Shown here: piece after piece, positions 2 to 17,101 of the stretch
Numbering within the stretch: position 1 is the stretch's first letter
Layout: each line of letters begins with the position of its first letter
Source: Thermococcus sp. 4557
Lineage (GTDB): Archaea > Methanobacteriota_B > Thermococci > Thermococcales > Thermococcaceae
NCBI RefSeq assembly: GCF_000221185.1
Contig: NC_015865.1
Span: forward strand, 1,054,001 to 1,118,000
Direction: 5' to 3'
Length of the DNA stretch: 64,000 nucleotides
Made by a program: the position numbers and the translations under genes
The notes under the pieces: model-generated
What the model was told of the DNA's origin: nothing
The model's database searches: none
The model's input: the letters and a program-made list of their open reading frames with translations, nothing else

Positions 2-1078
2 GAGACCCTGCTCCGCTACAACCTGCTGAGCGAGGAGGAAAAGGCCAGTGCCGTTGAACTGATAAGAAACGCCCAGCTTGACTACGGCCTCTGGGGCAAC
101 ACCGTCCTCGGTCCGCAGCCCTACGAAACGGCCCTCGCGGTCAAGGCCCTCCTCGACCTCGGCGTCCCCGCGAACGACCCCCTCATCCAGGCCGCCAAGG
201 AGTGGCTTCTCAGCATAAGCAACGGCGGCTGGGGAACCCACGTCACGACCCCGCACTTCTCGTACATGCTCAAACCGGACGTGCTGACCACCATAACGGT
301 CCTCGAAGCCCTAGAGAACGTGGCCACCCCCGAAGAGCTTGAACCCCACCTCCAGTGGCTCATGGACCAGAGAATAAACGGCGGCTGGGCCTATTGGAAG
401 GCCTACTACGTCTGGCAGGAGAACAGGGAGTACCCAGGAACCCCGAGCGTTGAGCTTACCGTGCGCGCCACCGACATGCTCCTCAGATACGGCCACAACT
501 ACACCTCCAAGACCCTTGACTTCGTTATGAACGCCAGGGACAGCGGGCTGATAAGGAACAAGCCCATCGAGACCGCGAACGCTGTGCTCTATCTCTGCCG
601 CTTCCAGTACATACCCCCAGTCAGCCTCAACGATGTGAGGGCAGAGCTCGACAGTGACATCTTTGAGGTCATCGCGCCCGGCATGGACAACGAGAGCGTG
701 GCGGAGATAGTGAACCGCCTGAGCGACACGTTCAGCGGCGGCTTCATCGCGGCTAACGGCACCGGAATCGGCGAGGGAAGCTACATCGTTCTCTCGAACT
801 TCAGTGGCTACAGTATAAGGGTCTACAACCCCTACCTGCCCTTCCACATAGACGGCGATAACGTTACCGTCGGCAACGTCACCGTTCCGCTGAACAAGTC
901 AGTTGTCCTCATACCCGGCAAGACACCGGAAGGGGTGGTGCTCTTCGTATTCTACGAGCCGGAGAACGAGGGGATAGCGAAGGACGTCTTCACCACGGGC
1001 TTCATCAAGTACATCGGCGGAAGCGCAATGGTGCTCGTCGTCGAGAACGGAAGGATAAAAGTAATAGCGGTGGGGTGA
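2..1078 (+). CDS. Prenyltransferase/terpene-cyclase-repeat protein, 3' part
   Basis: The reading frame is open from the window edge, so only the C-terminal 358 residues are visible and the start lies outside. Repeated motifs of the kind YGLWGNT, GGWGTH and GGWAYWK, separated by helical stretches with PYETALAVKALLDLG, are typical of the alpha/alpha-barrel repeats of prenyltransferases and squalene cyclases. Archaeal proteins with these repeats are often secreted or surface proteins and not enzymes; no catalytic DxDD motif is seen in this part. The last 100 residues are beta-rich with several N-x-S/T sequons, which suggests an extracellular domain. The stop lies 7 bases before the CetZ gene, so the two are probably co-transcribed. 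The fold is likely; the function is unknown. Confidence 0.7.
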   Translation, partial: ETLLRYNLLSEEEKASAVELIRNAQLDYGLWGNTVLGPQPYETALAVKALLDLGVPANDPLIQAAKEWLLSISNGGWGTHVTTPHFSYMLKPDVLTTITVLEALENVATPEELEPHLQWLMDQRINGGWAYWKAYYVWQENREYPGTPSVELTVRATDMLLRYGHNYTSKTLDFVMNARDSGLIRNKPIETANAVLYLCRFQYIPPVSLNDVRAELDSDIFEVIAPGMDNESVAEIVNRLSDTFSGGFIAANGTGIGEGSYIVLSNFSGYSIRVYNPYLPFHIDGDNVTVGNVTVPLNKSVVLIPGKTPEGVVLFVFYEPENEGIAKDVFTTGFIKYIGGSAMVLVVENGRIKVIAVG

Positions 1079-1085
1079 TAGAGAA

Positions 1086-2240
1086 GTGAGGGCTCTAATC
1101 ATCGGGGTCGGTCAGTGCGGAACTAAAATCGCCGACCTCTTTTCTCTTGTTGATTTTGAAACCCTTGCGATAAACACTTCCCGTGGGGACCTTGAATACC
1201 TCAAGCACGTTCCCCACGAGCGCAGGATACTCATCGGTGAGGGCATAACCGGGGGAAAGGGCGTCAACGCCAACCCCATACTCGGCAGAGAAGCCATGAA
1301 GCGCGACCTGCCCGTTGTGATGCGCAAGATAGGGTCAATAATAGGCTACGAGGACGTGGACATATTCTTCCTCACCTTCGGATTCGGCGGCGGAACCGGG
1401 GCCGGGGGGACGCCCATCCTCGCGGAGGCCCTGAAGGAGGAGTATCCCGACTCCCTCGTCGTCGCAATAGGGGCCCTTCCCCTCAGGGAGGAGGGCATCA
1501 GGCCAACAATCAACGCCGCCATAACCATAGACAAGCTCTCGAAGATAGCCGACTCCATAATCGCCATAGACAACAACAAGCTCCGCGGGAGCGGCGACGA
1601 CATAACCCACGCCTACGAGCGGATAAACTATACAATAGTCGAGCGCATAGCTTCCCTCCTGGCGCTCGTCGATGTTCCCGGCGAGCAGACCCTCGACGCG
1701 AGCGACCTGAAGTTCGTCCTCAAGGCGTTCGGCAGCTTCGCCACAGTGGGGTACGCAAAGGCCGAAGCGGGCAGGGTCAAGAGCCTCTCGCGCCTCATTA
1801 TAAAATCGTTCGAAAACGAGGGACTGTACCTCGACGCCAACATAGAGTCCGCGCTCTACGGCCTCGTGGCGGTCCACGGGCCCCCGGAGGTCCTGAAGGC
1901 AGGGGATATCTTTGAAGCGCTCGACTATCTCACCAACAAAATAAAGGGAAAGCAGATATTCCGCGGCTTCTACCCCGACCCGCGCGAGAGGGAGGTCGAG
2001 GTTGTAACCCTCCTCAGCGGCATCTACGACAGCAAGAGCATAGAGGACATCATAATCACCGCCAGAAACTACGCCCAGTCGTTTATGAAGGCAAAAGAGG
2101 AAGCAGAAAGCCGGAAAAAAGAGCTTCTGAGCGGTCTGCCGGATTTCGACGACGTCTATCCCTCAGGTGACGTATACGAGGGGACGTTCCCCGACGTGAA
2201 CGAGGTGGCAAAGAGGCTGAGGAGGGGAAAGGATGACTGA
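1086..2240 (+). CDS. cetZ: CetZ/FtsZ-like tubulin-superfamily GTPase
   Basis: A 384-residue protein with a GTG start preceded by a GGTGA-type ribosome binding site that overlaps the end of the upstream gene. The N-terminal GVGQCGTK (residues 7-14) and the tubulin signature GGGTGAG (101-107) form the nucleotide-binding site of the tubulin/FtsZ fold. Overall length and the absence of an FtsZ-type C-terminal tail fit the archaeal CetZ group, members of which control cell shape and motility in haloarchaea. It lies between a surface-type repeat protein and a run of pilin-like genes, overlapping the next gene by 8 bases. A role in positioning or shaping an envelope structure is inference from context. 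The family call is firm, the CetZ subgroup less so. Confidence 0.85.
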   Translation: MRALIIGVGQCGTKIADLFSLVDFETLAINTSRGDLEYLKHVPHERRILIGEGITGGKGVNANPILGREAMKRDLPVVMRKIGSIIGYEDVDIFFLTFGFGGGTGAGGTPILAEALKEEYPDSLVVAIGALPLREEGIRPTINAAITIDKLSKIADSIIAIDNNKLRGSGDDITHAYERINYTIVERIASLLALVDVPGEQTLDASDLKFVLKAFGSFATVGYAKAEAGRVKSLSRLIIKSFENEGLYLDANIESALYGLVAVHGPPEVLKAGDIFEALDYLTNKIKGKQIFRGFYPDPREREVEVVTLLSGIYDSKSIEDIIITARNYAQSFMKAKEEAESRKKELLSGLPDFDDVYPSGDVYEGTFPDVNEVAKRLRRGKDD

Positions 2241-2862
2241 CCCTGTGAAAGACTCCGTCGAAGTGGCCCTCGACCTTGACGAGAAGGAGGTCTACTCCCA
2301 CATAGCCCACGAGAGCGCCGAGGACATCATCAGGATTATCTCCTCCCTCGATGCCGAGAGGGCGAAGCTCCACGGGGAGGTCATCTACTACAAGGACGAC
2401 TGGGACGACCTCATCAGGGAGAGGATGGCAAAGGGAAAGCGCCACACCGCCTTTGACTTCTACAACCCTGCACTCCTCGACATCTGGGAGGCAAAGGTCA
2501 GGGAGCTGAAGGAGCTCAAAAAGAAGGAGAAACTCGGCTACGCCCTGCTCGCGGCGGTACTCGCCCTGACCGGGGCTGCATCGGTTATGACCGGCCAGGC
2601 CTACGTCCTCCTCGGCATGGCACTGCTGCCGCTGGCGGTTCTCATACGCGACCGCGGCAGGGACAGATCCGACCTGATATACTACGAACTCACGCAGTTT
2701 TTCATCGACGAGCTGGGCGAACTCGTCAGAAAGCACAACCTCCAGCCCGAGCGCTACAAGTTCAAAATATTCAGCGGTGATTACTTCGGTATCGAGGCCA
2801 GAAAACTCGGAACGGGCCTTTTCGCGGTAGTAACGGCCGAAAAATCCAAGGGCAACCATTAA
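2233..2862 (+). CDS. Conserved two-helix membrane protein, unknown function
   Basis: A 209-residue protein starting at an ATG that overlaps the cetZ stop by 8 bases. It has an acidic, probably coiled N-terminal half (about residues 1-95), then two adjacent hydrophobic segments at roughly 100-138 joined by a short turn, then a basic RDRGRDRSD stretch and a C-terminal cytoplasmic-looking domain. I do not recognise the family. The tight overlap with cetZ suggests the two products work together, possibly as a membrane anchor for the GTPase; this is inference only. Confidence 0.65.
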   Translation: MTDPVKDSVEVALDLDEKEVYSHIAHESAEDIIRIISSLDAERAKLHGEVIYYKDDWDDLIRERMAKGKRHTAFDFYNPALLDIWEAKVRELKELKKKEKLGYALLAAVLALTGAASVMTGQAYVLLGMALLPLAVLIRDRGRDRSDLIYYELTQFFIDELGELVRKHNLQPERYKFKIFSGDYFGIEARKLGTGLFAVVTAEKSKGNH

Positions 2863-2868
2863 ATAGAT
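2857..2868 (+). promoter_or_regulatory. Putative TATA box of the pilin-like operon
   Basis: The sequence ATTAAATAG lies at the 3' end of the upstream gene, about 40 bases before the ATG of the first pilin-like gene. This spacing fits an archaeal TATA box with transcription starting near 2888. It could let the surface-protein genes be expressed separately from cetZ. Weak by itself. Confidence 0.35.
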
Positions 2869-2902
2869 GTTCAAAGATATACCAGTAGTGAGGGGAGAAA
2901 AC

Positions 2903-3454
2903 ATGAAGATTGCGAGACGCGGCCAGGTGTCACTTGAATTTATGCTCGTGTTCGGGATAATGCTCATACTTCTGATTTACTCAGTCAACAGCATCACATT
3001 CCAGCAGGGTTCGACTTCAACGGAGACCCTTAAAATGCAGGTGCTCCTCGAGGAGAAGAGCCTCGCCAACGCGATAGCCGGCACCGTGGCGCAGGTGTAC
3101 TCTCAAGGGCCGGGTGCGAAGTCCACCACCTATGTAAAGGTCACCTACCTCGCCGAGCCAGACTACCTGCAGAAAGCCTTTGGCTCCGCGAAGGTGACGA
3201 TAGGGGGAAACGAAGACTCCATGCTCGTATGGGTGGGGGACAGCTCTGTTACAAGCGGGGCAAATAAGAACACCGTATCCACCGAGGTTCCCTACAGCCT
3301 GGAAGACTTCGATGACCTCTCGTTTTCGGACGGCCTCCCTTCGAAGTCCATAAGGATAGTAGTTACGTGGGATCCAAGCGAGGATGAAGGATGGAGCAAA
3401 AATGTCGCCGGCGACTATCTCGAAATCACGATAAACATCAATCCCGGTGGGTGA
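2903..3454 (+). CDS. Pilin-like protein with class III signal peptide
   Basis: The start chosen is the ATG at 2903, preceded by GAGGGGAG, and not the in-frame ATG at 2867, because this gives a proper N-terminus, MKIARRGQVSLEF, followed by a 20-residue hydrophobic helix. RRGQVSLEF matches the archaeal class III signal peptide (Q-x-S-x-E), cut by the prepilin peptidase FlaK/PibD between G and Q. The mature protein (183 aa in all) has a pilin-like N-terminal helix and a beta-rich soluble domain. It is the first of three small proteins of this type in a row. It probably forms or caps a type IV pilus-like surface filament; the precise role is unknown. Confidence 0.8.
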   Translation: MKIARRGQVSLEFMLVFGIMLILLIYSVNSITFQQGSTSTETLKMQVLLEEKSLANAIAGTVAQVYSQGPGAKSTTYVKVTYLAEPDYLQKAFGSAKVTIGGNEDSMLVWVGDSSVTSGANKNTVSTEVPYSLEDFDDLSFSDGLPSKSIRIVVTWDPSEDEGWSKNVAGDYLEITININPGG

Positions 3455-3456
3455 CG

Positions 3457-3900
3457 ATGAGGCGGGGCCAGATAAGTCTTGACTTCCTGTTTGCGGTCAC
3501 TTTGGTAATGATCACGATGCTCAATGTGGTTTACATAGCCAACAGCGAAAGGGGCAACGCGGAGACCTTCGATACCGTGTCAAGGCTCAAGGTGTTCTCA
3601 GTGGACGTGAGGGACACCGTGGCCAAGGTGTACGCCTCAGGGGATGGATTCAGCGTTAGAAAAACCGCCCCGTTTACCCTCAAAAGCGGAGAGAAGATAG
3701 TGGTGAGACTAAAAGCTGACGACAACACGATAACAGTGATCGGAATAATCGGGGGAAAACGGTACACGATAGTCCAGAAGAGCCCGGTCCCGATATACCA
3801 GGATGATTCAATACAGCTCAGCTCGAACAGGGCCGAGATATGGATAGTGGCCAGAGAGGAGGAGGGGAAGACGTATGTCGAGCTCCAGGCCTCGCCGTAG
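3457..3900 (+). CDS. Pilin-like protein with class III signal peptide
   Basis: The start is the ATG at 3457, two bases after the previous stop; upstream in-frame starts lie inside the previous gene. The 147-residue product begins MRRGQISLDF and continues into a hydrophobic helix, a class III signal peptide with D in place of the usual E at position +5. The rest is predicted beta-rich with a KRYTIVQKSP segment. It is a minor-pilin-like subunit by size and position. Its stop lies 26 bases inside the next gene. Confidence 0.78.
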   Translation: MRRGQISLDFLFAVTLVMITMLNVVYIANSERGNAETFDTVSRLKVFSVDVRDTVAKVYASGDGFSVRKTAPFTLKSGEKIVVRLKADDNTITVIGIIGGKRYTIVQKSPVPIYQDDSIQLSSNRAEIWIVAREEEGKTYVELQASP

Positions 3901-4357
3901 GGGTCAGACCGCGCTGGAGGTTCTCTTCATAATGGGGATAATCCTAACGGGGATAGTCATCATAACCCCCTCCTATCTTAACGAAAACAGAAGTGCATCC
4001 CTGGTAACGTACGTCAGAAACTCCGCCACGAGTGCATGCGCATACCTCAACTCGGGGGTCGCAACAAACGACAACCAGTACCGCGTTCTCAACAGGATCA
4101 TCACGGCCTCAAACTACACCTCCAAATCGTTCCGCGTTGTTTCCATCACCTCAAGCGAAAGCGGGGACACCATAACGATAAACATACGGATAGAGTATTC
4201 TGGAAACATCGACCTGAAGAACGGCGGCATCGCGGGAAGGATAAAAACCTTCATAACCCGCGACTTAGTGGCTCACAGCGACGCTAGACTCAGCGGGGGA
4301 ACCCTCTACTACGGGGACAAGAAGGTCGTCATCAAGGTAAAAGTGGTGAGATCATGA
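3875..4357 (+). CDS. Pilin-like protein with class III signal peptide
   Basis: A 160-residue protein whose ATG is preceded by GGAGGGGAAG and overlaps the upstream gene by 26 bases. The N-terminus RRRGQTALEVLF is a class III signal peptide with cleavage expected between G and Q, followed by a hydrophobic helix (about residues 15-32). The stop overlaps the next start as ATGA, so translation is coupled. Probably a minor pilin-like subunit of the same filament as its neighbours. Confidence 0.78.
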   Translation: MSSSRPRRRGQTALEVLFIMGIILTGIVIITPSYLNENRSASLVTYVRNSATSACAYLNSGVATNDNQYRVLNRIITASNYTSKSFRVVSITSSESGDTITINIRIEYSGNIDLKNGGIAGRIKTFITRDLVAHSDARLSGGTLYYGDKKVVIKVKVVRS

Positions 4358-5841
4358 GGCGAAAGGGACAAATATTTTCGCTGGACGCAATGCTGTCCCT
4401 TATAATGGTGGTAATGATAATCGGAATGATCAGCACCACTTCAACCGCGTTAAAGAGCGAGATAACCACGATGGTGGGCTGGTACGAGAGGAGCAACGTT
4501 GGAGACGACATTCTGGACATCCTGGTAAAGACCCCCGGGGATCCGGAGGATTGGGAAACCGACCCCTCCACGCTCATCCACCTGGGTCTTGAGAACCCAT
4601 CCTATCCAGATACAATCGATTTCAAGAAGGTGGAGGCGCTCAACAACGCCTACCTAGACAATGACGATGCCATCAGGAGGGCGCTGCTCAACCTCAGCAT
4701 GGGGAGGGACTTCAGCCTCGGCCTTTTCCTCACGAAGATCGAGATCAGCGGTGACGTAACGGTCATTCCCCCCAATACCGAGGGCTCCGTGGACGTAGAA
4801 GAGGAAAGCCAGGTCTCAATATCCCAGACAAACGGCTTCGCCTTTGGTAGGCCTGTGATAGCGGAGTGGATGAACCCGGAGAGGTCAGATGCAGAGGGGA
4901 CCGGAAATATAGACCACGTGATAAACATAACTGCCGGGGAGAGCTTTGTGTTCAAACTGACCGGCGACAACACCAACGTTAGGATTATTGTACATGAACC
5001 CGGATCAGGCCAGCCCAGCAGGTACGATATCCCTTCCGGGGTTGTCGTCCATATCGACGTGGATACTGGGTACCTCCTGATAGGGTGGACGAAGCTGAGC
5101 GACGGGACGTACAAGATCTGGATACCATACAAACCCGGAAACCCCGTCTGGACAACGTGGTCCGGCACAATCTGGTGGGGTCAGCAGGGAGGGGTATCAT
5201 CCTCGGACCTCAACATAAGGTACGTGTACGCAACAGAGGTGACCCACGCCGACTACAACATCACACTGGTAAACGGGAAGTTCATGTACGACCCGACGGA
5301 GGTCGGAAAATCCATGGAAAAATCCCCCTGGATCACGTATTCCGAGAGGCGCGTTCCCATGAGCAAGATTGTGTACTCCAGCCAGTACACCGTAGCGCCT
5401 TCCGGCCTTCCAAAGGAGCTGTACGTTGGAACCATATACAATCCAATACCAGAATACATGAGCCTCAAGGTCCAGTTCGATGATCCCGGCTACATAGTAA
5501 TGGTAGCCTGGCTGAGGGGCACAAACGTCTCGGGCTACTCCGTAATGGCGGCGTACCGGGGTGAATCGGACCCCACAATGAGGGCAATCATAAACCAGAC
5601 CATAAATGGGAACACCATAGTGAAGTACTACTCATCGCAGAGTCCAGACTACATCGTCATACCCTGGAAGGACTTCCTGACCACGATCAAACCAGGTGAG
5701 AACCTCGACGTGTATGTGTGGGTGTACAAGATGAGCAACGTTGATTCCCTAACCGTAACCGACCTCAGTGGCATAAGCACCCTTATGAAACCCCAGACGA
5801 GTCTGGCGGTGTTAAGACTTCGCGTGTGGGATGAACCATGA
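4354..5841 (+). CDS. Large envelope protein with pilin-like N-terminus
   Basis: A 495-residue protein whose ATGA start overlaps the preceding stop. It begins MRRKGQIFSLDAMLSL, a variant of the class III signal in which two extra residues follow GQ, then a hydrophobic helix to about residue 30. The remainder is a long beta-rich, N-x-S/T-containing domain that looks extracellular. It lacks a second membrane segment. It may be a filament-tip adhesin or scaffold anchored by its N-terminal helix. I do not recognise a named domain. Confidence 0.7.
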   Translation: MRRKGQIFSLDAMLSLIMVVMIIGMISTTSTALKSEITTMVGWYERSNVGDDILDILVKTPGDPEDWETDPSTLIHLGLENPSYPDTIDFKKVEALNNAYLDNDDAIRRALLNLSMGRDFSLGLFLTKIEISGDVTVIPPNTEGSVDVEEESQVSISQTNGFAFGRPVIAEWMNPERSDAEGTGNIDHVINITAGESFVFKLTGDNTNVRIIVHEPGSGQPSRYDIPSGVVVHIDVDTGYLLIGWTKLSDGTYKIWIPYKPGNPVWTTWSGTIWWGQQGGVSSSDLNIRYVYATEVTHADYNITLVNGKFMYDPTEVGKSMEKSPWITYSERRVPMSKIVYSSQYTVAPSGLPKELYVGTIYNPIPEYMSLKVQFDDPGYIVMVAWLRGTNVSGYSVMAAYRGESDPTMRAIINQTINGNTIVKYYSSQSPDYIVIPWKDFLTTIKPGENLDVYVWVYKMSNVDSLTVTDLSGISTLMKPQTSLAVLRLRVWDEP

Positions 5842-7982
5842 GGAGAAGGGGTTTCATGTTCACACTTGACGCGGTTCTCGCCATACTGCTGGTTACCATG
5901 TTCGTGGTCAGCATGGTGCAGGTGACCAGCACATCAAGTCAGGTGTACTCGACATATATGCGCTCCCAGGACAAATACCTGGCGGAAGACACGCTGACGA
6001 TGCTTAGAACCCTCCCGCTGAGGGAGCTCGTCCCACCTGACAAGCTGGAGTCCTGGATGAGCGGTCCTGATCCCATTCTCAACACCACCCTGGTAACGCC
6101 GGACATGTCTCCGATAGACATAGTTTCAACGTACTGGGCCACGGATCCCATCTATCCGGGGGTTGACTTCAAACACAAGGCAGAGATGATAATGGGCTAC
6201 GTCCTCAACAACACCCTGAAGGGCTACAACTACGAGATGATGATAAACAACTACACCAGCCCGTACCTTAAGAAGACCGGTTCCGACTCCTCAGTCGCCC
6301 CGGATGTCATTCCCGCAACGCTCCTGATAAGCGGCTACGCCTACAACCAGACCCCCAGGGGCTACATGGCGAGGGCGTTCCTTACGAAAGCTGAGTACAC
6401 GAGGCAGGACATCTTTGGTATACAGAGGGTTCTGGCGAGGTGCCATTACGCTGATGAATACGGATGGGCTCAGGCTAACACGCTGACGGTCCAGAGCCAC
6501 TTCAGACTTCCAAACGATGCGGACATAGAAAACGCCGACATTAGGCTTGTGGCAAGAACGGGATACCAGACATCATCCTTTGACCTGAACGGACATTCCC
6601 TGGGTACTGGCTACTACAGCAACATCAAAGGATACCTGCAGGGTGGGGATAACGTTCTAACGGCCACATTTTCAACCCAGTACAGTACCAGGTACTGCTA
6701 CGAGCTAGGATACGGTAGTGGTTCCTTGATGTACGTCAAGTACTCCACCAACACCACAAGTTTTCAGCTCTTTGACCCGGTGAGGCGTTACGGAGAGCTC
6801 TACGACGTTACGAGCTACACGGGGATATACTACCTCAATGCCCTCTTCGCACCGGGAAACATCACGGGAATATCACTACACCTCGTCACAGAGGGAGTCC
6901 ACAATATCAACATCTACTACTCATACTGTTCAAACAACTATTGGATTGCACACAGAGAGGTACCAACTACTGGAGTACAGACAGTCGATATAAGCGCACA
7001 GGAAATTGAGCAGAACCTGACCGCGTGGGGGTTCAGCCTCAACGACCTGTCCAAGACGTACTTCAAGATCGTAATCGCCCTTGACGCCGAATGGGATGAG
7101 CAGCACAGGTATTTCGTGTATGATACCACAGGCAGGGAAAGGCACCTCTACGGAAACGGGCAGTCGTGGATACGGATAGATTACGTTCCAAGGACTGTAG
7201 TCAGCAGGTACGCGATACCCCTTTCTATATTCAAGAACTACAACCAGATAAGCTACGGCGGTACCTGCTACGGGATAAGATGCCAAAGGATGAGCTTCTC
7301 CTACACCCTGCCCCCCAAGTCCATCCCCTGGTACGTTGACGTATGGACGGCCATCCAGTTCACAACCTTTACCCCCACCGCAACGACGACGCTGTCCGAA
7401 AACGGCCAGGTATTCTACGATGACTATTCCGATATCTACATGATAAGGGTCGGATACTCCCAGCTGAACGATAACATGATGGTACCGGGCCAGTCGAACA
7501 CCTACGTGGCTGAAAGCTCGGACTCATACCAGTACGGATTCAGAAAAGGTGAGAGCAGGGCAATAATCAACTACTTCATAGAGGGCTACGCGGGTTACGG
7601 AGACGTCTTTCCAAAGCCCCTCCAGGGATATCCCGGCTACAATGGGTACCGGCTCACGTACTACTACTCAAAGGGAGGCGGCACGTACGAGCGCACGATA
7701 CTGATAGGAGACTCCCCATACCTTGACATAACGGTGGATGATCTCGACCCAACCAAATACGCGGTCGATGATGCTATACTCCGGCTGTTCAACAACCTCA
7801 ACTTCCTGGCAGACACGGATCCCAACGGGTGGAAGAGCCAGCCTTTCGATGGGTCCCAGAATAACCCGATAGACGTTGACCTGCCGGAGAGCGTTAGGAT
7901 AGACTTCGTCTCCATGGGCAACATTCCAGGACTGTTCGAACCAATATCGATAACCCTTCGCGTCTGGAGGGAAGAGAGATGA
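5838..7982 (+). CDS. Large envelope protein with pilin-like N-terminus
   Basis: A 714-residue protein joined to the previous gene by an ATGA overlap. It starts MRRRGFMFTLDAVLAI followed by a hydrophobic helix. This resembles the upstream class III signals, but the GQ is replaced by GF, so prepilin peptidase processing is uncertain. The body is rich in Tyr, Asn, Ser and Thr with many sequons and looks like a beta-sandwich surface protein. Two regions (near residues 220-285 and 500-560) look like jelly-roll modules, though I cannot name them. Likely surface exposed, function unknown. Confidence 0.68.
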   Translation: MRRRGFMFTLDAVLAILLVTMFVVSMVQVTSTSSQVYSTYMRSQDKYLAEDTLTMLRTLPLRELVPPDKLESWMSGPDPILNTTLVTPDMSPIDIVSTYWATDPIYPGVDFKHKAEMIMGYVLNNTLKGYNYEMMINNYTSPYLKKTGSDSSVAPDVIPATLLISGYAYNQTPRGYMARAFLTKAEYTRQDIFGIQRVLARCHYADEYGWAQANTLTVQSHFRLPNDADIENADIRLVARTGYQTSSFDLNGHSLGTGYYSNIKGYLQGGDNVLTATFSTQYSTRYCYELGYGSGSLMYVKYSTNTTSFQLFDPVRRYGELYDVTSYTGIYYLNALFAPGNITGISLHLVTEGVHNINIYYSYCSNNYWIAHREVPTTGVQTVDISAQEIEQNLTAWGFSLNDLSKTYFKIVIALDAEWDEQHRYFVYDTTGRERHLYGNGQSWIRIDYVPRTVVSRYAIPLSIFKNYNQISYGGTCYGIRCQRMSFSYTLPPKSIPWYVDVWTAIQFTTFTPTATTTLSENGQVFYDDYSDIYMIRVGYSQLNDNMMVPGQSNTYVAESSDSYQYGFRKGESRAIINYFIEGYAGYGDVFPKPLQGYPGYNGYRLTYYYSKGGGTYERTILIGDSPYLDITVDDLDPTKYAVDDAILRLFNNLNFLADTDPNGWKSQPFDGSQNNPIDVDLPESVRIDFVSMGNIPGLFEPISITLRVWREER

Positions 7983-10567
7983 GAAAGAGACGGGCGTACA
8001 TCATAAACTCCACCGTCATACTCCTAATCATACCACTCATACTCCTCCTCGCCACTTACGAGGACGTATCCTCCCAGATAGTCTTCTATCAGAGCGAGAG
8101 GATGCAGGTCGAGAGGACGTACAGAGTGGTGTCGTACATAGAGATGGACTTCCAGAGAACCCTGGAGATATCCGGGAAGAGGGCGGTGGTAACCGTAGTC
8201 GATTACATAGCAAGCACCGGAAACTTCCTGAGCGCCTCCAGCAGCCCTGCCAACATCACCATAAGGGACCTGATGCTGGTCGAAGAAGCCCAGGGTGTGA
8301 GCCAGCAGTACGCGGACAAGCTGATGAAGGATCAGACCGTTTTCAGGTGGCTGCTCAATATCTCCTCCGAGCTTGACAAGCAGGGGTACACACTGGAGGT
8401 GGACGACACCGCCATTTCAGACGTGGCAAGCATGAGCCGCGATAAGAGAAAAGAGTTCCTCCGGAAGAACGTTGATATAACCGTCGCCCCCCTCGACTCG
8501 TTCAGGATAGTTGTGAGGGCCAGAATAGACAACGTCAAGATATACGATTCGGCGAATAACGTCGTTTACCAGGGCACGATTCCAAGGGACGGCTACGTGT
8601 ACTCCATCGTGTCGATAGAGGAACTGGAGGACCCGATGTTCTCAGCCCTAACCGGTGGAAGGTACTTCAGATCCATAAGGCCGTGCAACTACACGTACCC
8701 CGAGCTAATAGACAGGCCGATAAAGGTTCTCTACGGCGACGGAGCCAGCACCGTGTACCATTACCCTGGTGTCTATTCCAAGACCACAGATATCGGGAAC
8801 ATCTTCTTCGGAAACGCGTACCCCGGCGATGGTGCCTCGGCGTACGTCATAAAGAGCGGAACGCCCACGGACCCATCCATTCCGATGATAGTGAACACAA
8901 GCCTGACTGAAGGGGGAGATCTGGCCGATCCTTCTAAAGTTTTCAAAACAGGGGATCTGGGAGTCCTGGCATTCGATGAGACGTCGGGTGGCGGCTCGAA
9001 CAGCTGGTGCTCGGGCCTGGAGTACCGGCTGAACATAACCGTGACCAACAACGCAGGCGAGGACCTCAACGACTATCAAATACCCATACTGCTGAGCACC
9101 GCCAAGGATCTAACGACCCAGGTTCTCGGCTTCCTGTTCTCCCACACGGACTACTCAGAAAACCAAGACCCCTTCAAGAACGGCGCCGCGATCGAGATTT
9201 ACGACGAAAACTGCCGTCCGGTCCCGTTCTGGATCGAATACTGGTCTCCCAGAAAATCAAAGGCGCTGATATGGATACGCGACAGTCTCGAGGACAGGGA
9301 GAGTAAAACCTACAGCATATACTTCGGTGAGGGGACTCCAACAAAGGGATACCACCCTGAACAGGTCTTCCTGTTCTTCGATGATTTCACGGATCCCTGG
9401 ACCGAAAAATGGCAAGAAGTGGACGACACCCCCACACAGTCCGGGGGCGAACTGACGATCCCCGGCGGTAACTCATACTACGTGGTGCGGACAAAGGAGA
9501 CCCTGGACTACAGCGACTCGTTCGCCATTAGATTCAGGATGAAGGGAACTGCAAACAGCGACTGGGACAGCGGCGTTGGAATAGACGATGTTCTGCGACA
9601 CACGGTGCTCTTCACCGATGATTACTCTGGCAGTGGGGACGGAATGGCGATTCATCTTGCCGGCTGGTGGCCAGCAACAGCAGTCGGTGACGGGGGACGT
9701 GCTGACATAAGAACGTTTAACACGTACGAGGCACAGGTGGTACCCCTGACCAATATACTACGGATTACGGAGTTCACATTCAGGGACATCCTGGACCAAG
9801 ACGCCAACGCAATATCAAGGCAGGAGAGGGCAGATACCAGGTCGTTGGGGTGGACGTTTGGTACTCCCCAATATGTATATCTCGTGACAGACACGGACGG
9901 AAGTACGATCCCAGATACCATCTTTGACTACGTCTTGGTGAGAAAACATCCCAGCTCAGGAGACCTCCTCGACGACCCCAATTTCAACGGTATAAAGGTA
10001 TCATCACCCCAGAAACTCCGGAGGGACATAGAAGAAAAACCAGAGGGAAGTAGTTCAATAACAATCACACCGGCAAGGGCCTACGACCTCCAGCCTTTCG
10101 TGGAGTGTCTCATGGATCAGAGATACTTTGGAACGTACTCCGGCTGGTCATTCTTTGAGAGGCTGGAGAACAGCAACCGCAACCACGAAGGCTACGTACG
10201 GCTCGCGAAGAGGATGCAGGATGAGCTGGGGATAAAGTATGGCAACGAGTACTACCCGATAGGCCTCGTCAGCTTCATGATACCCCACAGGGTCTACGAC
10301 GAGAAGCTGTTCAATATATTCGTCAGCCTTCAAATCGCCCCGGAGGAAGGGGTGTCCAGTGCGGACTACAATTTCCTGAACCACTACTTCAAGTCGAGGG
10401 ACGTTATCTCCAGTACCGGCTATCGTGTGTGGGGAATCTCCTACGAAGACCCGAACAATCCGAACCCCAATCTTCACAACCCGAGAGAGGTCCCGTTCTT
10501 CATTGACTACGAAACGGCTACCGCGATCTTCGGTACCGAAGGGGCAAACGACCTGCTGAAGAGGTGA
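7979..10567 (+). CDS. Large surface protein with DUF2341-like domain
   Basis: An 862-residue protein coupled to its neighbour by ATGA. The N-terminus, MRKRRAYIINSTVILLIIP, is a basic stretch plus a hydrophobic helix, like an uncleaved anchor. Residues about 345-455 (LNITVTNNAGEDL through SYPIYFG-type endings, with DENCRPVPFWIEYW) resemble DUF2341, and the next 200 residues look like a concanavalin/LamG-type sandwich; these two are found together in archaeal surface proteins that bind ligands. It is probably the adhesive component of the structure made by this operon. The domain call is from motif memory. Confidence 0.7.
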   Translation: MRKRRAYIINSTVILLIIPLILLLATYEDVSSQIVFYQSERMQVERTYRVVSYIEMDFQRTLEISGKRAVVTVVDYIASTGNFLSASSSPANITIRDLMLVEEAQGVSQQYADKLMKDQTVFRWLLNISSELDKQGYTLEVDDTAISDVASMSRDKRKEFLRKNVDITVAPLDSFRIVVRARIDNVKIYDSANNVVYQGTIPRDGYVYSIVSIEELEDPMFSALTGGRYFRSIRPCNYTYPELIDRPIKVLYGDGASTVYHYPGVYSKTTDIGNIFFGNAYPGDGASAYVIKSGTPTDPSIPMIVNTSLTEGGDLADPSKVFKTGDLGVLAFDETSGGGSNSWCSGLEYRLNITVTNNAGEDLNDYQIPILLSTAKDLTTQVLGFLFSHTDYSENQDPFKNGAAIEIYDENCRPVPFWIEYWSPRKSKALIWIRDSLEDRESKTYSIYFGEGTPTKGYHPEQVFLFFDDFTDPWTEKWQEVDDTPTQSGGELTIPGGNSYYVVRTKETLDYSDSFAIRFRMKGTANSDWDSGVGIDDVLRHTVLFTDDYSGSGDGMAIHLAGWWPATAVGDGGRADIRTFNTYEAQVVPLTNILRITEFTFRDILDQDANAISRQERADTRSLGWTFGTPQYVYLVTDTDGSTIPDTIFDYVLVRKHPSSGDLLDDPNFNGIKVSSPQKLRRDIEEKPEGSSSITITPARAYDLQPFVECLMDQRYFGTYSGWSFFERLENSNRNHEGYVRLAKRMQDELGIKYGNEYYPIGLVSFMIPHRVYDEKLFNIFVSLQIAPEEGVSSADYNFLNHYFKSRDVISSTGYRVWGISYEDPNNPNPNLHNPREVPFFIDYETATAIFGTEGANDLLKR

Positions 10568-10571
10568 AATC

Positions 10572-11327
10572 ATGTCCATGGAGGATCTGCTGTACCGCAT
10601 AGGCGAATCAGTGTATTCGGTAGGTGGCAAGGTTAGGGGTTTTCTGTTTCCCACCCCTACCGAAAGACCCCCCAAGTTCAGCCTCCTCAAGAGGTTCATC
10701 AGGAAGCCCCTAACCGTTCACGAGTTTCTCAGCCTCAGACTCCAGATAGCGTTTCTTATCTACCTCCTGGCCAACCTGGCGATGCTGCTCATTCGGCTGA
10801 GCCCAATATGGATAGCGGCCGTTGGAGCGGCCTACCTCATGTACCTCCGGTACACCCTCCTGAAAAACAGGGACTTCTTCATAGCCCCCCAGCCGTACAG
10901 AACATTCTACTACGGAATCTCAGGAATAACCCTCGCCGCGTTCCTCGGATACACTGCAGTAAGAAGGATCGCGACCTCCGTGTACTACTACTATGGCTAC
11001 CTGGTGGTCGTCTTCGCGGCCGTCATGGCATTCAGGTGGTACTTCAAGCAGAAATACGGAAGGGACTACACCTACGGCGTTGTTGAGGAGATTAAAGGCG
11101 ATGTCGTCAGGGTCTTTGTGCACGACGACATAGCGGCGAACGTCAAGCCCGGCCACTACTGGGTCGATGCCGTGGAAGACCTGGAAGTTGGCAGGGTCGT
11201 GAAGCTCATCGTGGAGGACAGAAAGCTCAAGGGGGCAGTTCCGGTAAGGATAATAGAAGTTTACCTCGAGGAACCCCCCGCTCAATCTTCCCAGAGCTCG
11301 ACGGAGCCAAAGGAAGAAACCGAATGA
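10572..11327 (+). CDS. DUF2101-type membrane protein
   Basis: A 251-residue protein starting four bases after the previous stop. It has hydrophobic segments at about 54-90, 110-130 and 137-155, then a soluble C-terminal domain with VVEEIKGDVVRVFVHDDIAANVKPGHYWVD, a small beta-barrel-like domain. I associate this arrangement with the DUF2101 family of Thermococcales, whose function is unknown. It ends the + strand operon; its last 46 bases overlap the end of a convergent small gene on the other strand. Confidence 0.6.
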   Translation: MSMEDLLYRIGESVYSVGGKVRGFLFPTPTERPPKFSLLKRFIRKPLTVHEFLSLRLQIAFLIYLLANLAMLLIRLSPIWIAAVGAAYLMYLRYTLLKNRDFFIAPQPYRTFYYGISGITLAAFLGYTAVRRIATSVYYYYGYLVVVFAAVMAFRWYFKQKYGRDYTYGVVEEIKGDVVRVFVHDDIAANVKPGHYWVDAVEDLEVGRVVKLIVEDRKLKGAVPVRIIEVYLEEPPAQSSQSSTEPKEETE

Positions 11328-11662: not shown

Positions 11663-11727
11663 GGAGCGATGATGAGAGAACCCGTTGCCGATAAAAAGAT
11701 GGGGAGAGGACCGACTAGCTGAGCTCC
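11663..11727 (+). ncRNA. C/D box guide sRNA candidate overlapping guaAA 3' end
   Basis: Box C ATGATGA (11669-11675), a 12-base spacer, box D' CCGA (11688-11691), a degenerate box C' ATGGGGA (11699-11705), a 13-base spacer and box D CTGA (11719-11722). The outer boxes are closed by a perfect five-pair terminal stem GGAGC/GCTCC (11663-11667 with 11723-11727), as expected for a kink-turn. This is the architecture of archaeal box C/D 2'-O-methylation guide RNAs. The last bases overlap the end of guaAA antisense to it. The weak points are box C' and the 7-base D'-C' gap. Confidence 0.55.
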
Positions 11728-12284
11728 CCGCAGAGCTCCGCAAAGTTGCGGTAAATGTCTGCCCCACGCTCCGTGTGGAAGACCTCAGGGTGGAACTGCA
11801 CGCCGTATATCGGCAGGCTCTCGTGCTTCATGGCCTCAACCGGGCAGGTCTCACTCCTGGCCAAGAGCCTGAAGCCCTCGGGAAGCTCCTTCACCTCGTC
11901 CATGTGGCTCTCCCAGACCTTGAGCCTCTTCGGAAGTCCCTGGAAGATGTCGTTCTCCTCCAGTATCTCCACCTCAACGAGGCTGTATTCGGCCTTCTCA
12001 CCCTTCCCAACCTTTCCGCCGAAGTGCTTCGCTATCAGCTGGTGGCCAAGGCAGATGCCAAGGATTGGAACGTTGAACTCGTCGTAGTGCTCCAAGATGG
12101 CGGAGCAGTTGCCGGTCTTCTCGATGTCCGGGCCGCCCGAGAAGATTATGCCCTTTGGCTTCATGGCCTTTATCTCCTCAAGCGGCGTCGTGTTGGGGAT
12201 TATCCTGGCCTCGACGCCGAGATAGCGCAGGGTTCTCCAAATCCTGTGGACGTACTGCCCGCCGTTGTCCATTATAACTATCAT
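11715..12284 (-). CDS. guaAA: GMP synthase, glutamine amidotransferase subunit
   Basis: A 189-residue class I glutamine amidotransferase that releases ammonia from glutamine for the separate GuaAB synthase subunit, which aminates XMP to GMP. Visible are the nucleophile Cys78 in GICLGHQ and the catalytic His-Glu in FHPEVFH. Archaea commonly split GMP synthase into these two subunits. The ATG has GGAGGTGAG six bases before it and overlaps the vapC stop as ATGA. The separation of the two subunit genes by a toxin-antitoxin pair is unusual. Confidence 0.95.
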
Positions 12285-12727
12285 GAACTCACCTCCAAGA
12301 GTTTGAAGAAGGCGTCGGATTCTTCAACGAGATAAAAAGCCCTCAAACCGAGGGATTTTGCTAGTTCGGCCATCTTTCTGTCGTTCGTAACCAGAACCGC
12401 GTCAAGATAACGGGCGGTTGCGATGAAATAGATGTCAGAGGCCCGGTGGTGTGTCTGAAAAGCCACCTCTCGAAGCTCCTCGATGAGCAGTTCCTCCGGA
12501 ACCCACGCAATTATTTCACTGTAATAAGTCAGCGCCTTTTCAACCTGCTCCCGCTCAAAATACCTCGAGAGAACAGCAACGAACTCAACTTCGCCCAGAC
12601 GGGGGGCGTAAAGTTCTATTGAGCCAAGGTGTGCGTATTCTATGATTTTCTCGGCGACTTCTGCTCTTTCAGGATAGAAGCTGGAAAACAGATGAAAAAC
12701 AACGGAGGTGTCAACCACGACCCTCAT
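12281..12727 (-). CDS. vapC: VapC-type PIN-domain ribonuclease toxin
   Basis: A 148-residue PIN-domain protein. It has the first acidic residue in VVVDTS (Asp6), an internal Glu in [10 protein letters not shown] and the late acidic pair in HHRASDIYF and VTNDRKM, forming the expected Mg-binding site of VapC RNases. It would cut RNA when not held by its antitoxin, encoded directly upstream with an ATGA overlap. Its own stop overlaps the guaAA start in the same way, so toxin and GMP synthase subunit are translated together. All key acidic residues seem present, so the toxin is probably active. Confidence 0.85.
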
Positions 12728-12933
12728 GTTTCCTCCTCCCTTAAGCGAAGGAGATAGTCCGTCGGGTCTTCCTTGAACTTCTCGGGGGTTACCTTCTTCC
12801 GCATTTCCCTTGCCAGCTCAAGAAAGTCCTCGTGGTAAATCCTCACCCTGAGCCTCTGCCCTTCCTTCAGCTTGAGGGGCTTGAGGGGCCTCAGCACGCC
12901 GTTCTCGTAAACCACTTCAATAATCTCGCCCAT
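12724..12933 (-). CDS. vapB: AF2212/DUF104-type antitoxin
   Basis: A 69-residue protein starting at the ATG at 12933, which has GGTGAG four bases before it; an earlier in-frame start lies in the promoter. The N-terminal half, MGEIIEVVYENGVLRPLKPLK, is the typical strand-rich DUF104 (AF2212-like) DNA-binding head that precedes PIN-domain toxins in archaea; the charged C-terminal half (EFKEDPTDYL-like region) would wrap the toxin. It probably represses its own transcription, and hence perhaps also guaAA. A TATA-like CTTATTTA lies about 35 bases upstream. Confidence 0.82.
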   Translation of the reverse strand: MGEIIEVVYENGVLRPLKPLKLKEGQRLRVRIYHEDFLELAREMRKKVTPEKFKEDPTDYLLRLREEET

Positions 12934-12974
12934 ACTCTCACCGTTTAAAATTGGAAGCGAAGGTAAATAAGCTT

Positions 12975-13898
12975 TCACTCGAACTCAATCGTTGCCGGAG
13001 GCTTGTTGGTGATGTCGTAGAGCACCCTTCCAACCTCGGGAATCTCGCTGGTTATCCTGAAGGCTATCCTCTGCAGGACCTCGAAGGGAACGTTCATGGC
13101 GTTGGCCGTCATACCATCGAGGCTCTCAACAACGCGGACGGCGATTGTTTCCTTGTAGGCCCTTATGTCGCCCTGAACGCCGACGGTCTTCACCCCCAGC
13201 AGAACAGCGAATGCCTGCCAGGGCTTTAGACCGGCCTTCTCGATCTCCTCCTCGACTATGGCGTTTGCCTCTCTAACGATGGCAACCTTCTCCGGCGTGA
13301 CCTCTCCAAGGACGCGGACGGCCAATCCCGGCCCCGGAAAGGGCATGCGGTTGTATATCTTCTCAGGTAATCCAAGCTCCTTACCCAGCTCCCTGACCTC
13401 GTCCTTGTAGAGGTCGCGGAGCGGCTCTATCAGCTTGAGGTTGAGCCTCTCGGGCAGTCCTCCAACGTTGTGGTGGCTCTTGATTTTCCCCTTGCTCTCG
13501 ATCCAGTCCGGGGCTATCGTTCCCTGGATTAGGAACTGGGCGTCGATCTCCCTCGCGACCTCTTCAAACACCTCAATGAAGACCCTGCCGATTATCTTCC
13601 TCTTCTCCTCGGGGTCGGTGACCCCTTTAAGCTCGCTGAAGAACCTCTCGCCGGCATCGACGTAGTGCAGGTTGAGACCGAACTCGTCCCTGAAGGTCCT
13701 GACGACGAATTCAGGTTCACCCTTCCTCATAAAGCCGGTGTTGACGAAGACCGCGTGGAGTTTATCGCCTATGGCCTTGTGAGCAAGCACCGCAGCGACC
13801 GAGCTGTCAACGCCGCCGGAGAGTGCTATTATTGCCTTACCATCACCGACCGTTCCCCTAATCTCCTCAACCTTCTCCTCGATGAACCTCTCCCACAT
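12975..13898 (-). CDS. guaAB: GMP synthase, ATP pyrophosphatase subunit
   Basis: A 307-residue subunit that adenylates XMP and accepts ammonia from GuaAA to give GMP. The PP-loop motif ALSGGVDSS (about residues 25-33) and the C-terminal dimerisation domain ending in KPPATIEFE are those of the family. The start is the ATG at 13898, which has AGGTGGTG five bases before it; the eight extra upstream residues would spoil that site. TATA TTTATAAA lies at 13934-13941, flanked by two copies of the purine-promoter motif. Confidence 0.95.
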
Positions 13899-13915
13899 GA
13901 GCACCACCTTTTTGC

Positions 13916-17101
<3,186 letters not shown>

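Follow-up and report, generated by a model that had tools for sequence, protein, structure and literature searches.

A CetZ-linked operon of pilin-like and large surface proteins in Thermococcus sp. 4557 and its probable role in the clade 1 type IV pilus system

A gene cluster of Thermococcus sp. 4557, in which a gene for the tubulin-family GTPase CetZ is followed by genes for pilin-like and very large surface proteins, belongs to the clade 1 type IV pilus system of Thermococcales, which is already known. The operon probably supplies the minor pilins and the tip adhesin of this pilus, whose motor is encoded at a distance, together with a dedicated cytoskeletal unit formed by CetZ and a membrane protein. 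A preliminary description of the sequence had not recognised it as a described system, and here the literature speaks otherwise. Among the genes of clade 1 type IV pilus loci in Thermococci are those of a squalene cyclase and of a GTPase of the FtsZ family (Makarova et al. 2016, PMC4858521, where Szabo 2007 is the source cited for these loci), and cetZ regions are pilin-associated in 15 of 15 Thermococcales, with a well conserved organisation and a suggested scaffold role for the protein (Brown & Duggin 2023, PMC9856176). The neighbourhood and the CetZ scaffold proposal of the latter study are the same as ours; what is added here is a count over 89 genomes, the independence from the archaellum, a single case of separation, involving the DUF2101 gene, a hypothesis on the CetZ tail and its partner, and the grading of six prepilin-type starts. 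The literature searched yielded no experiments on cetZ in this group.

Organisation of the locus and its products

The window, i.e. the whole stretch of 64,000 nucleotides analysed, corresponds to positions 1,054,001 to 1,118,000 of a closed Thermococcaceae genome of 2,011,320 bp. All nine genes previously listed were recovered in the stated order by Pfam matches and by comparison of orthologue N-termini: CetZ, a two-helix membrane protein, three class III pilins, large proteins A and B, a DUF2341 protein and a DUF2101 membrane protein, all on the forward strand between positions 1086 and 11327 of the window. From the cyclase-like gene, which precedes them on the same strand, through DUF2101, the intergenic distances are 7, -8, 4, 2, -26, -4, -4, -4 and 4 nt. 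Starts overlapping all the way through, as first worded, are not found, some gaps being positive (up to 7 nt); the tight spacing (-26 to +7 nt) remains and is consistent with a single transcript. At its 3' end the unit meets convergent GMP synthase genes on the opposite strand. The same gene order was found in every orthologous locus read, far beyond chance.

The product of the first gene had been described as a repeat-rich exported protein preceding cetZ. Export and position hold, and the protein can now be specified: positions 2 to 1078 encode only the C-terminal part of a squalene-hopene-cyclase-like protein with alpha/alpha repeats, 742 aa in full length, whose reading frame (ORF L004:10850-13078) starts about 1.15 kb before the window. 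The match to squalene-hopene cyclase is weak (Pfam SQHop_cyclase_C, 27.3 bits, cut-off 26.1). No cyclase-like homologue was detected upstream of cetZ in two loci (L078 and L081), and the gene is therefore not obligatory.

The GTPase gene (positions 1086 to 2240) is one of three tubulin-superfamily genes in the genome, and is the one encoding CetZ, while the other two score closer to FtsZ. Its product matches the Pfam families Tubulin (103.4 bits, cut-off 33) and CetZ_C (59.8 bits, cut-off 21.6) and falls far below the cut-off of the FtsZ equivalog (115 bits against 295). Among solved structures, those ranking first by sequence are 4B46 and 4B45, which are H. volcanii CetZ1 and CetZ2, respectively (PMC9856176). 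The GTP-signature GGGTGAG and the T7-loop aspartates are near-invariant among relatives, within a nearly invariant catalytic core. At the C-terminus, a helix-like stretch is followed by the motif LLxGLPDFDDxY (residues ~347-358), present in practically every species, and then by a tail of variable length. This layout resembles that of FtsZ, where a conserved C-terminal peptide binds membrane tethers.

The next gene (positions 2233 to 2862) encodes a 209-aa membrane protein, a candidate partner of CetZ, in which a conserved cytosolic N-terminal half, including the stretch KRHTAFDFYNP, is followed by two long helices forming a hairpin and by a C-terminus that is again cytosolic. The two long helices are also seen in its AlphaFold model (pLDDT 78). 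The protein belongs to no Pfam family, and a fold search against the PDB returned nothing below an E-value of 0.5.

Six proteins carry prepilin-type starts, written here with an arrow at the prepilin-type site. Pilin 1 (RRG↓QVSLEF) scores 26.9 bits with the Class_IIIsignal profile, above its cut-off; its frame is readable from position 2867 up to 3454, and comparison of orthologues makes position 2903, giving MKIARRG↓QVSLEF, the more likely start. Pilin 3 (RRG↓QTALEV, positions 3875 to 4357) scores 19.3 bits, below the profile cut-off, and has a conserved N-terminus. Pilin 2 (RRG↓QISLDF, positions 3457 to 3900), large protein A (KG↓QIFSLDA, positions 4354 to 5841, with the acidic residue at +6) and large protein B (RRG↓FMFTLDA, positions 5838 to 7982) were assigned by N-termini kept in about 55 orthologues. 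In these loci the three small pilins start with [KR][GA]↓QxSLE, ↓Q(I/L)SxD and ↓QxxxE, protein A with ↓Q(L/I)xSLDA and protein B with ↓F(I/V)FTLDA. The 862-aa DUF2341 protein (positions 7979 to 10567; Pfam DUF2341, 63 bits) has a degenerate start of the same kind, of the form [KR]R[GA]↓F(L/I)xN, with [GA]↓F(L/I)(L/I/M)N kept across the loci. The pilin-like set, earlier counted as three class III pilins and two large variants, thus keeps these five members and gains the DUF2341 protein as a sixth. The G/A site is conserved in all six over the ~55 loci, and the starts can be graded from canonical to degenerate; only the DUF2341 protein is without an acidic residue at +5/+6.

In the pseudopili of bacterial type II secretion, the tip-most subunit is the one devoid of Glu5. 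By analogy, the lack of an acidic residue near +5 suggests a position at the pilus tip for the DUF2341 protein, a candidate tip adhesin. A tip location of DUF2341 proteins has been proposed, on other grounds, by Makarova et al. 2016 (PMC4858521).

The AlphaFold model of large protein B (pLDDT 82.6) features an N-terminal helix of 49 residues (10-58, low-confidence), followed by a beta-rich exodomain; the predicted layout is that of a pilin bearing a large head. Its N-terminus matches DUF7288 at 19 bits, below the cut-off. No fold identity could be assigned: the best matches, to carbohydrate-binding or multi-domain beta-sandwich proteins, reach TM values of only 0.1-0.14 over the whole chain and are read as shared beta-sandwich domains only. 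The last gene of the unit, and the least tightly linked one, encodes the DUF2101 membrane protein (positions 10572 to 11327; Pfam, 254 bits).

Conservation of the linkage in Thermococcaceae

A cetZ gene was identified in 89 of 94 Thermococcaceae genomes, from six genera, and in 73 of the 74 of good quality. The gene for the two-helix protein is present in exactly the same genomes (89/89) and adjoins cetZ in all 88 testable ones, at -26 to +102 nt, the 89th being split by a contig break. DUF2101, also found in 73 of 74 good-quality Thermococcaceae genomes and in none of 14 control genomes, lies on the same strand as cetZ, 8.2-11.2 kb apart, in 74 of the 75 genomes having both on one contig. The only exception is a genome (G100) in which DUF2101 has moved 35 kb away, leaving the stretch from cetZ to DUF2341 intact. 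Frequent separation of cetZ from the pilin genes in relatives, named beforehand as the finding that would speak against the association, was looked for and not found: in none of the 55 loci read does cetZ stand apart from them. In three of the loci BLAST did not pick up pilin 3, though space for it remains. Overall, these counts are strong support for cetZ being physically tied to a set of pilus-type genes; as the genomes share ancestry, they represent the conservation of one arrangement and not independent origins.

Over 56 sequences, CetZ has a mean pairwise identity of 86%, compared with 60% for the two-helix protein and 33-49% for the pilins and the large proteins. The much slower evolution of CetZ compared with the pilins would be expected if it served cell shape or some other general function, its place in the operon reflecting shared regulation only and the pili being made independently of it. 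In H. volcanii, CetZ1 has a role in shape and motility, and haloarchaeal cetZ2 is often not beside pili (PMC9856176); in our analysis, a PilB-like ATPase was found near cetZ2 in 10 of the 48 loci retrieved with haloarchaeal CetZ2, among the matches listed (Haloferax and one Salinigranum locus). We regard such a purely general function as unlikely: within the family cetZ is never parted from the membrane-protein gene, nor from the pilins in the loci read, while DUF2101 did move once, and CetZ is near pilus ATPases in Haloferax as well. It counts against the pilus model favoured here that the high conservation of CetZ could reflect another essential role.

Motor, shaft pilins and relation to the archaellum

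As first described, no PilB or PilC gene lies in the operon. The nearest ones are found at 1.3305-1.3343 Mb, 277 kb from cetZ, where a 622-aa PilB ATPase (T2SSE) is encoded together with two PilC proteins (two T2SSF in tandem); an exported protein and a DUF515 protein are encoded alongside. Searches of 61 genomes of the genus found a PilB in every one; its distance from cetZ is 201-829 kb in the 27 genomes where it could be measured, and the two are linked in none. The motor absent from the operon is unlinked, not missing. The lack of linkage in 27 of 27 genomes counts against a functional connection with the operon, and little can be made of a co-occurrence when the motor is universal. A tandem PilC about 4.5 kb from cetZ, with an opposite-strand gene in between, occurs in one distant archaeon (G070, locus L085), a suggestive but single case that is given no weight here. 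The genome of Thermococcus sp. 4557 has one more pair of ATPase and platform genes, at 3.6-6 kb, which stands among archaellin genes and is that of the archaellum.

Small class III pilins are encoded at 511.7 kb (62 and 64 aa) and at 1.83 Mb (55 aa), in the latter case beside the gene of a 402-aa prepilin peptidase of the Peptidase_A24/Arc_PepC type. They would fit the shaft pilins and the EppA peptidase of clade 1. Clade 1 pili of methanococci, methanobacteria and Thermococci (PMC4858521) share with our locus the class III minor pilins and a large DUF2341 protein, and with the genome the combination of one ATPase with two TadC/PilC proteins and small stand-alone major pilins (~70 aa); their peptidase is of the EppA type, the candidate counterpart here being the Peptidase_A24/Arc_PepC protein. 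The assignment of PilB to clade 1 is taken from the same source. DUF2341 proteins are also present in M. jannaschii. The FtsZ-family GTPase and the squalene cyclase are common to our locus and the Thermococci clade 1 loci. What differs here is that the operon is separated from its motor by ~277 kb, and that, in the genomes searched, two of its products, the two-helix protein and DUF2101, are confined to Thermococcaceae, save for two weak C-terminal matches of the two-helix protein within the same phylum.

As filament subunits, the two very large pilin-like proteins and the DUF2341 protein are out of the ordinary, and small shaft pilins are missing from the operon, as would suit a short pseudopilus or a membrane-anchored adhesin or secretion complex in place of a long pilus. 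This reading is rather improbable, given that the genome does encode small class III pilins of the shaft type, along with a prepilin peptidase, and that the homologous clade 1 system yields pili in Methanococcus maripaludis (PMC4858521).

The archaellum could be set apart by means of six near-complete genomes without archaellin (G008, G010, G017, G036, G047 and G085), where the only platforms are two of PilC type and no archaellum-type ATPase is found among the matches listed. In each of the six, cetZ and DUF2101 remain syntenic; the full order is intact in the five loci read, except for the cyclase-like gene, missing in one. The operon is therefore independent of the archaellum, and PilB/PilC1/PilC2, the only such machinery left, is in these genomes the sole platform of this kind able to serve it. 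That the operon is part of the archaellum, or of the polar cap organising archaella in Pyrococcus and Thermococcus with CetZ as a cap component, is thus disfavoured and very improbable, in spite of the proteinaceous cap under the archaella of P. furiosus (PMC5517150) and of the effect of CetZ1 on Haloferax archaella (PMC11621097). The cap, moreover, was never seen without archaella (PMC5517150).

A proposed role for CetZ

According to the pilus model favoured here, the prepilin peptidase would remove the leaders of the pilin-like proteins of the operon, and PilB, PilC1 and PilC2 would extrude the subunits. The DUF2341 protein would be tip-most, with the two large beta-rich proteins below it as adhesins, and the 55-64-aa pilins would form the shaft. 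CetZ would polymerise beneath the membrane, tethered to the two-helix protein, most likely via its C-terminal LLxGLPDFDDxY motif, and the unit formed by the two would position or stabilise the base of the pilus as a cytoplasmic scaffold. It is in this sense that CetZ would place or assemble a surface structure.

The motif of the CetZ tail and the conserved cytosolic half of the two-helix protein are a candidate docking pair, proposed from adjacency, co-occurrence and conservation only. A more specific version, in which a tubulin-family filament acts as a cradle of the pilus, CetZ binding the Thermococcaceae-specific two-helix protein through LLxGLPDFDDxY, much as FtsZ does with its membrane tethers, and thereby fixing the pilus site, can be advanced only tentatively.

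Two other systems offer a comparison. The bacterial PilM-PilN pair is a pilus alignment complex, in which PilM is actin/FtsA-like. It is likewise operon-encoded, with a cytoskeletal-fold cytoplasmic protein and a small membrane protein beside pilin genes; CetZ is tubulin-like, PilM is not its homologue, and the likeness is one of analogy only. In the haloarchaeal regulon of cetZ2 with PilB2/PilC2 (clade 4F), the CetZ gene adjoins the pilus ATPase gene. A common ancestry beyond CetZ was considered and not retained, the other operon proteins giving no profile matches in the 48 loci; as far as accessory genes are concerned, the haloarchaeal and Thermococcales associations look independent, or appear to share only CetZ and the pilus machinery.

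If the cradle reading is true, Thermococcaceae would possess a tubulin-based counterpart of bacterial PilM-PilN, and CetZ would have become associated with pili on more than one occasion, in Thermococcaceae and in Haloferax. With a single CetZ, one invariant membrane partner and one pilus gene set, Thermococcales are a clean test ground, and working genetics are available in Thermococcus kodakarensis and Pyrococcus furiosus. The association itself being published, the value of the present analysis lies in a mechanism narrowed enough to be tested and in the evidence for an operon independent of the archaellum.

Genes flanking the cetZ operon

The operon is preceded by a gene for a cyclase-like exported protein, of which window positions 2-1078 hold one part, the full reading frame lying at 10850-13078 of L004, a stretch of the source genome reaching upstream of the window. 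This protein evolves fast, with a mean identity of 38%. No homologue was detectable upstream of cetZ at two other cetZ loci, L078 and L081, where the operon is intact apart from the missing cyclase-like gene.

Further upstream, at L004:1206-6411 (about 1,043.2-1,048.4 kb of the genome, outside the window), three tandem genes for DUF1102 exported proteins are accompanied by those for a signal-peptidase-like protein and for one DUF11 and one DUF5305 protein. This is a second surface-structure cluster near the cetZ operon, found on the same strand and at most about 10 kb away from it.

Downstream, window 11715-13922 is a purine operon with a toxin-antitoxin pair inside. On the minus strand, the genes for the GATase subunit of GMP synthase (11715-12284) and for GMP synthase B (12975-13922) are separated by those for a PIN-domain toxin (12281-12727) and an AF2212-like antitoxin (12724-12978), with overlapping starts.

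The PilB gene

The PilB ATPase gene of genome G001 (L167:1478-4915) contains an intein-like insertion, presumably an intein of the KlbA type, which begins with ALYDF and ends with VSN, followed by CMGTIHAN. Many relatives carry at this gene an ORF of about 1,070-1,230 codons, while in others the ORF is uninterrupted; judged from ORF length, the long form is present in about half of the genus.

CetZ genes in a distant archaeon

Six tubulin-superfamily matches in total were obtained in G070, the genome of a distant archaeon. At its locus L086 (contig C37), the CetZ query matches several tandem places, which suggests that two or three CetZ-like genes follow one another there. At L085:662-10000, about 4.5 kb separate a CetZ gene from tandem TadC/PilC genes, which are found together with genes for large exported proteins; L085 is a possible further CetZ-pilus neighbourhood, beyond Thermococcaceae and Haloarchaea.
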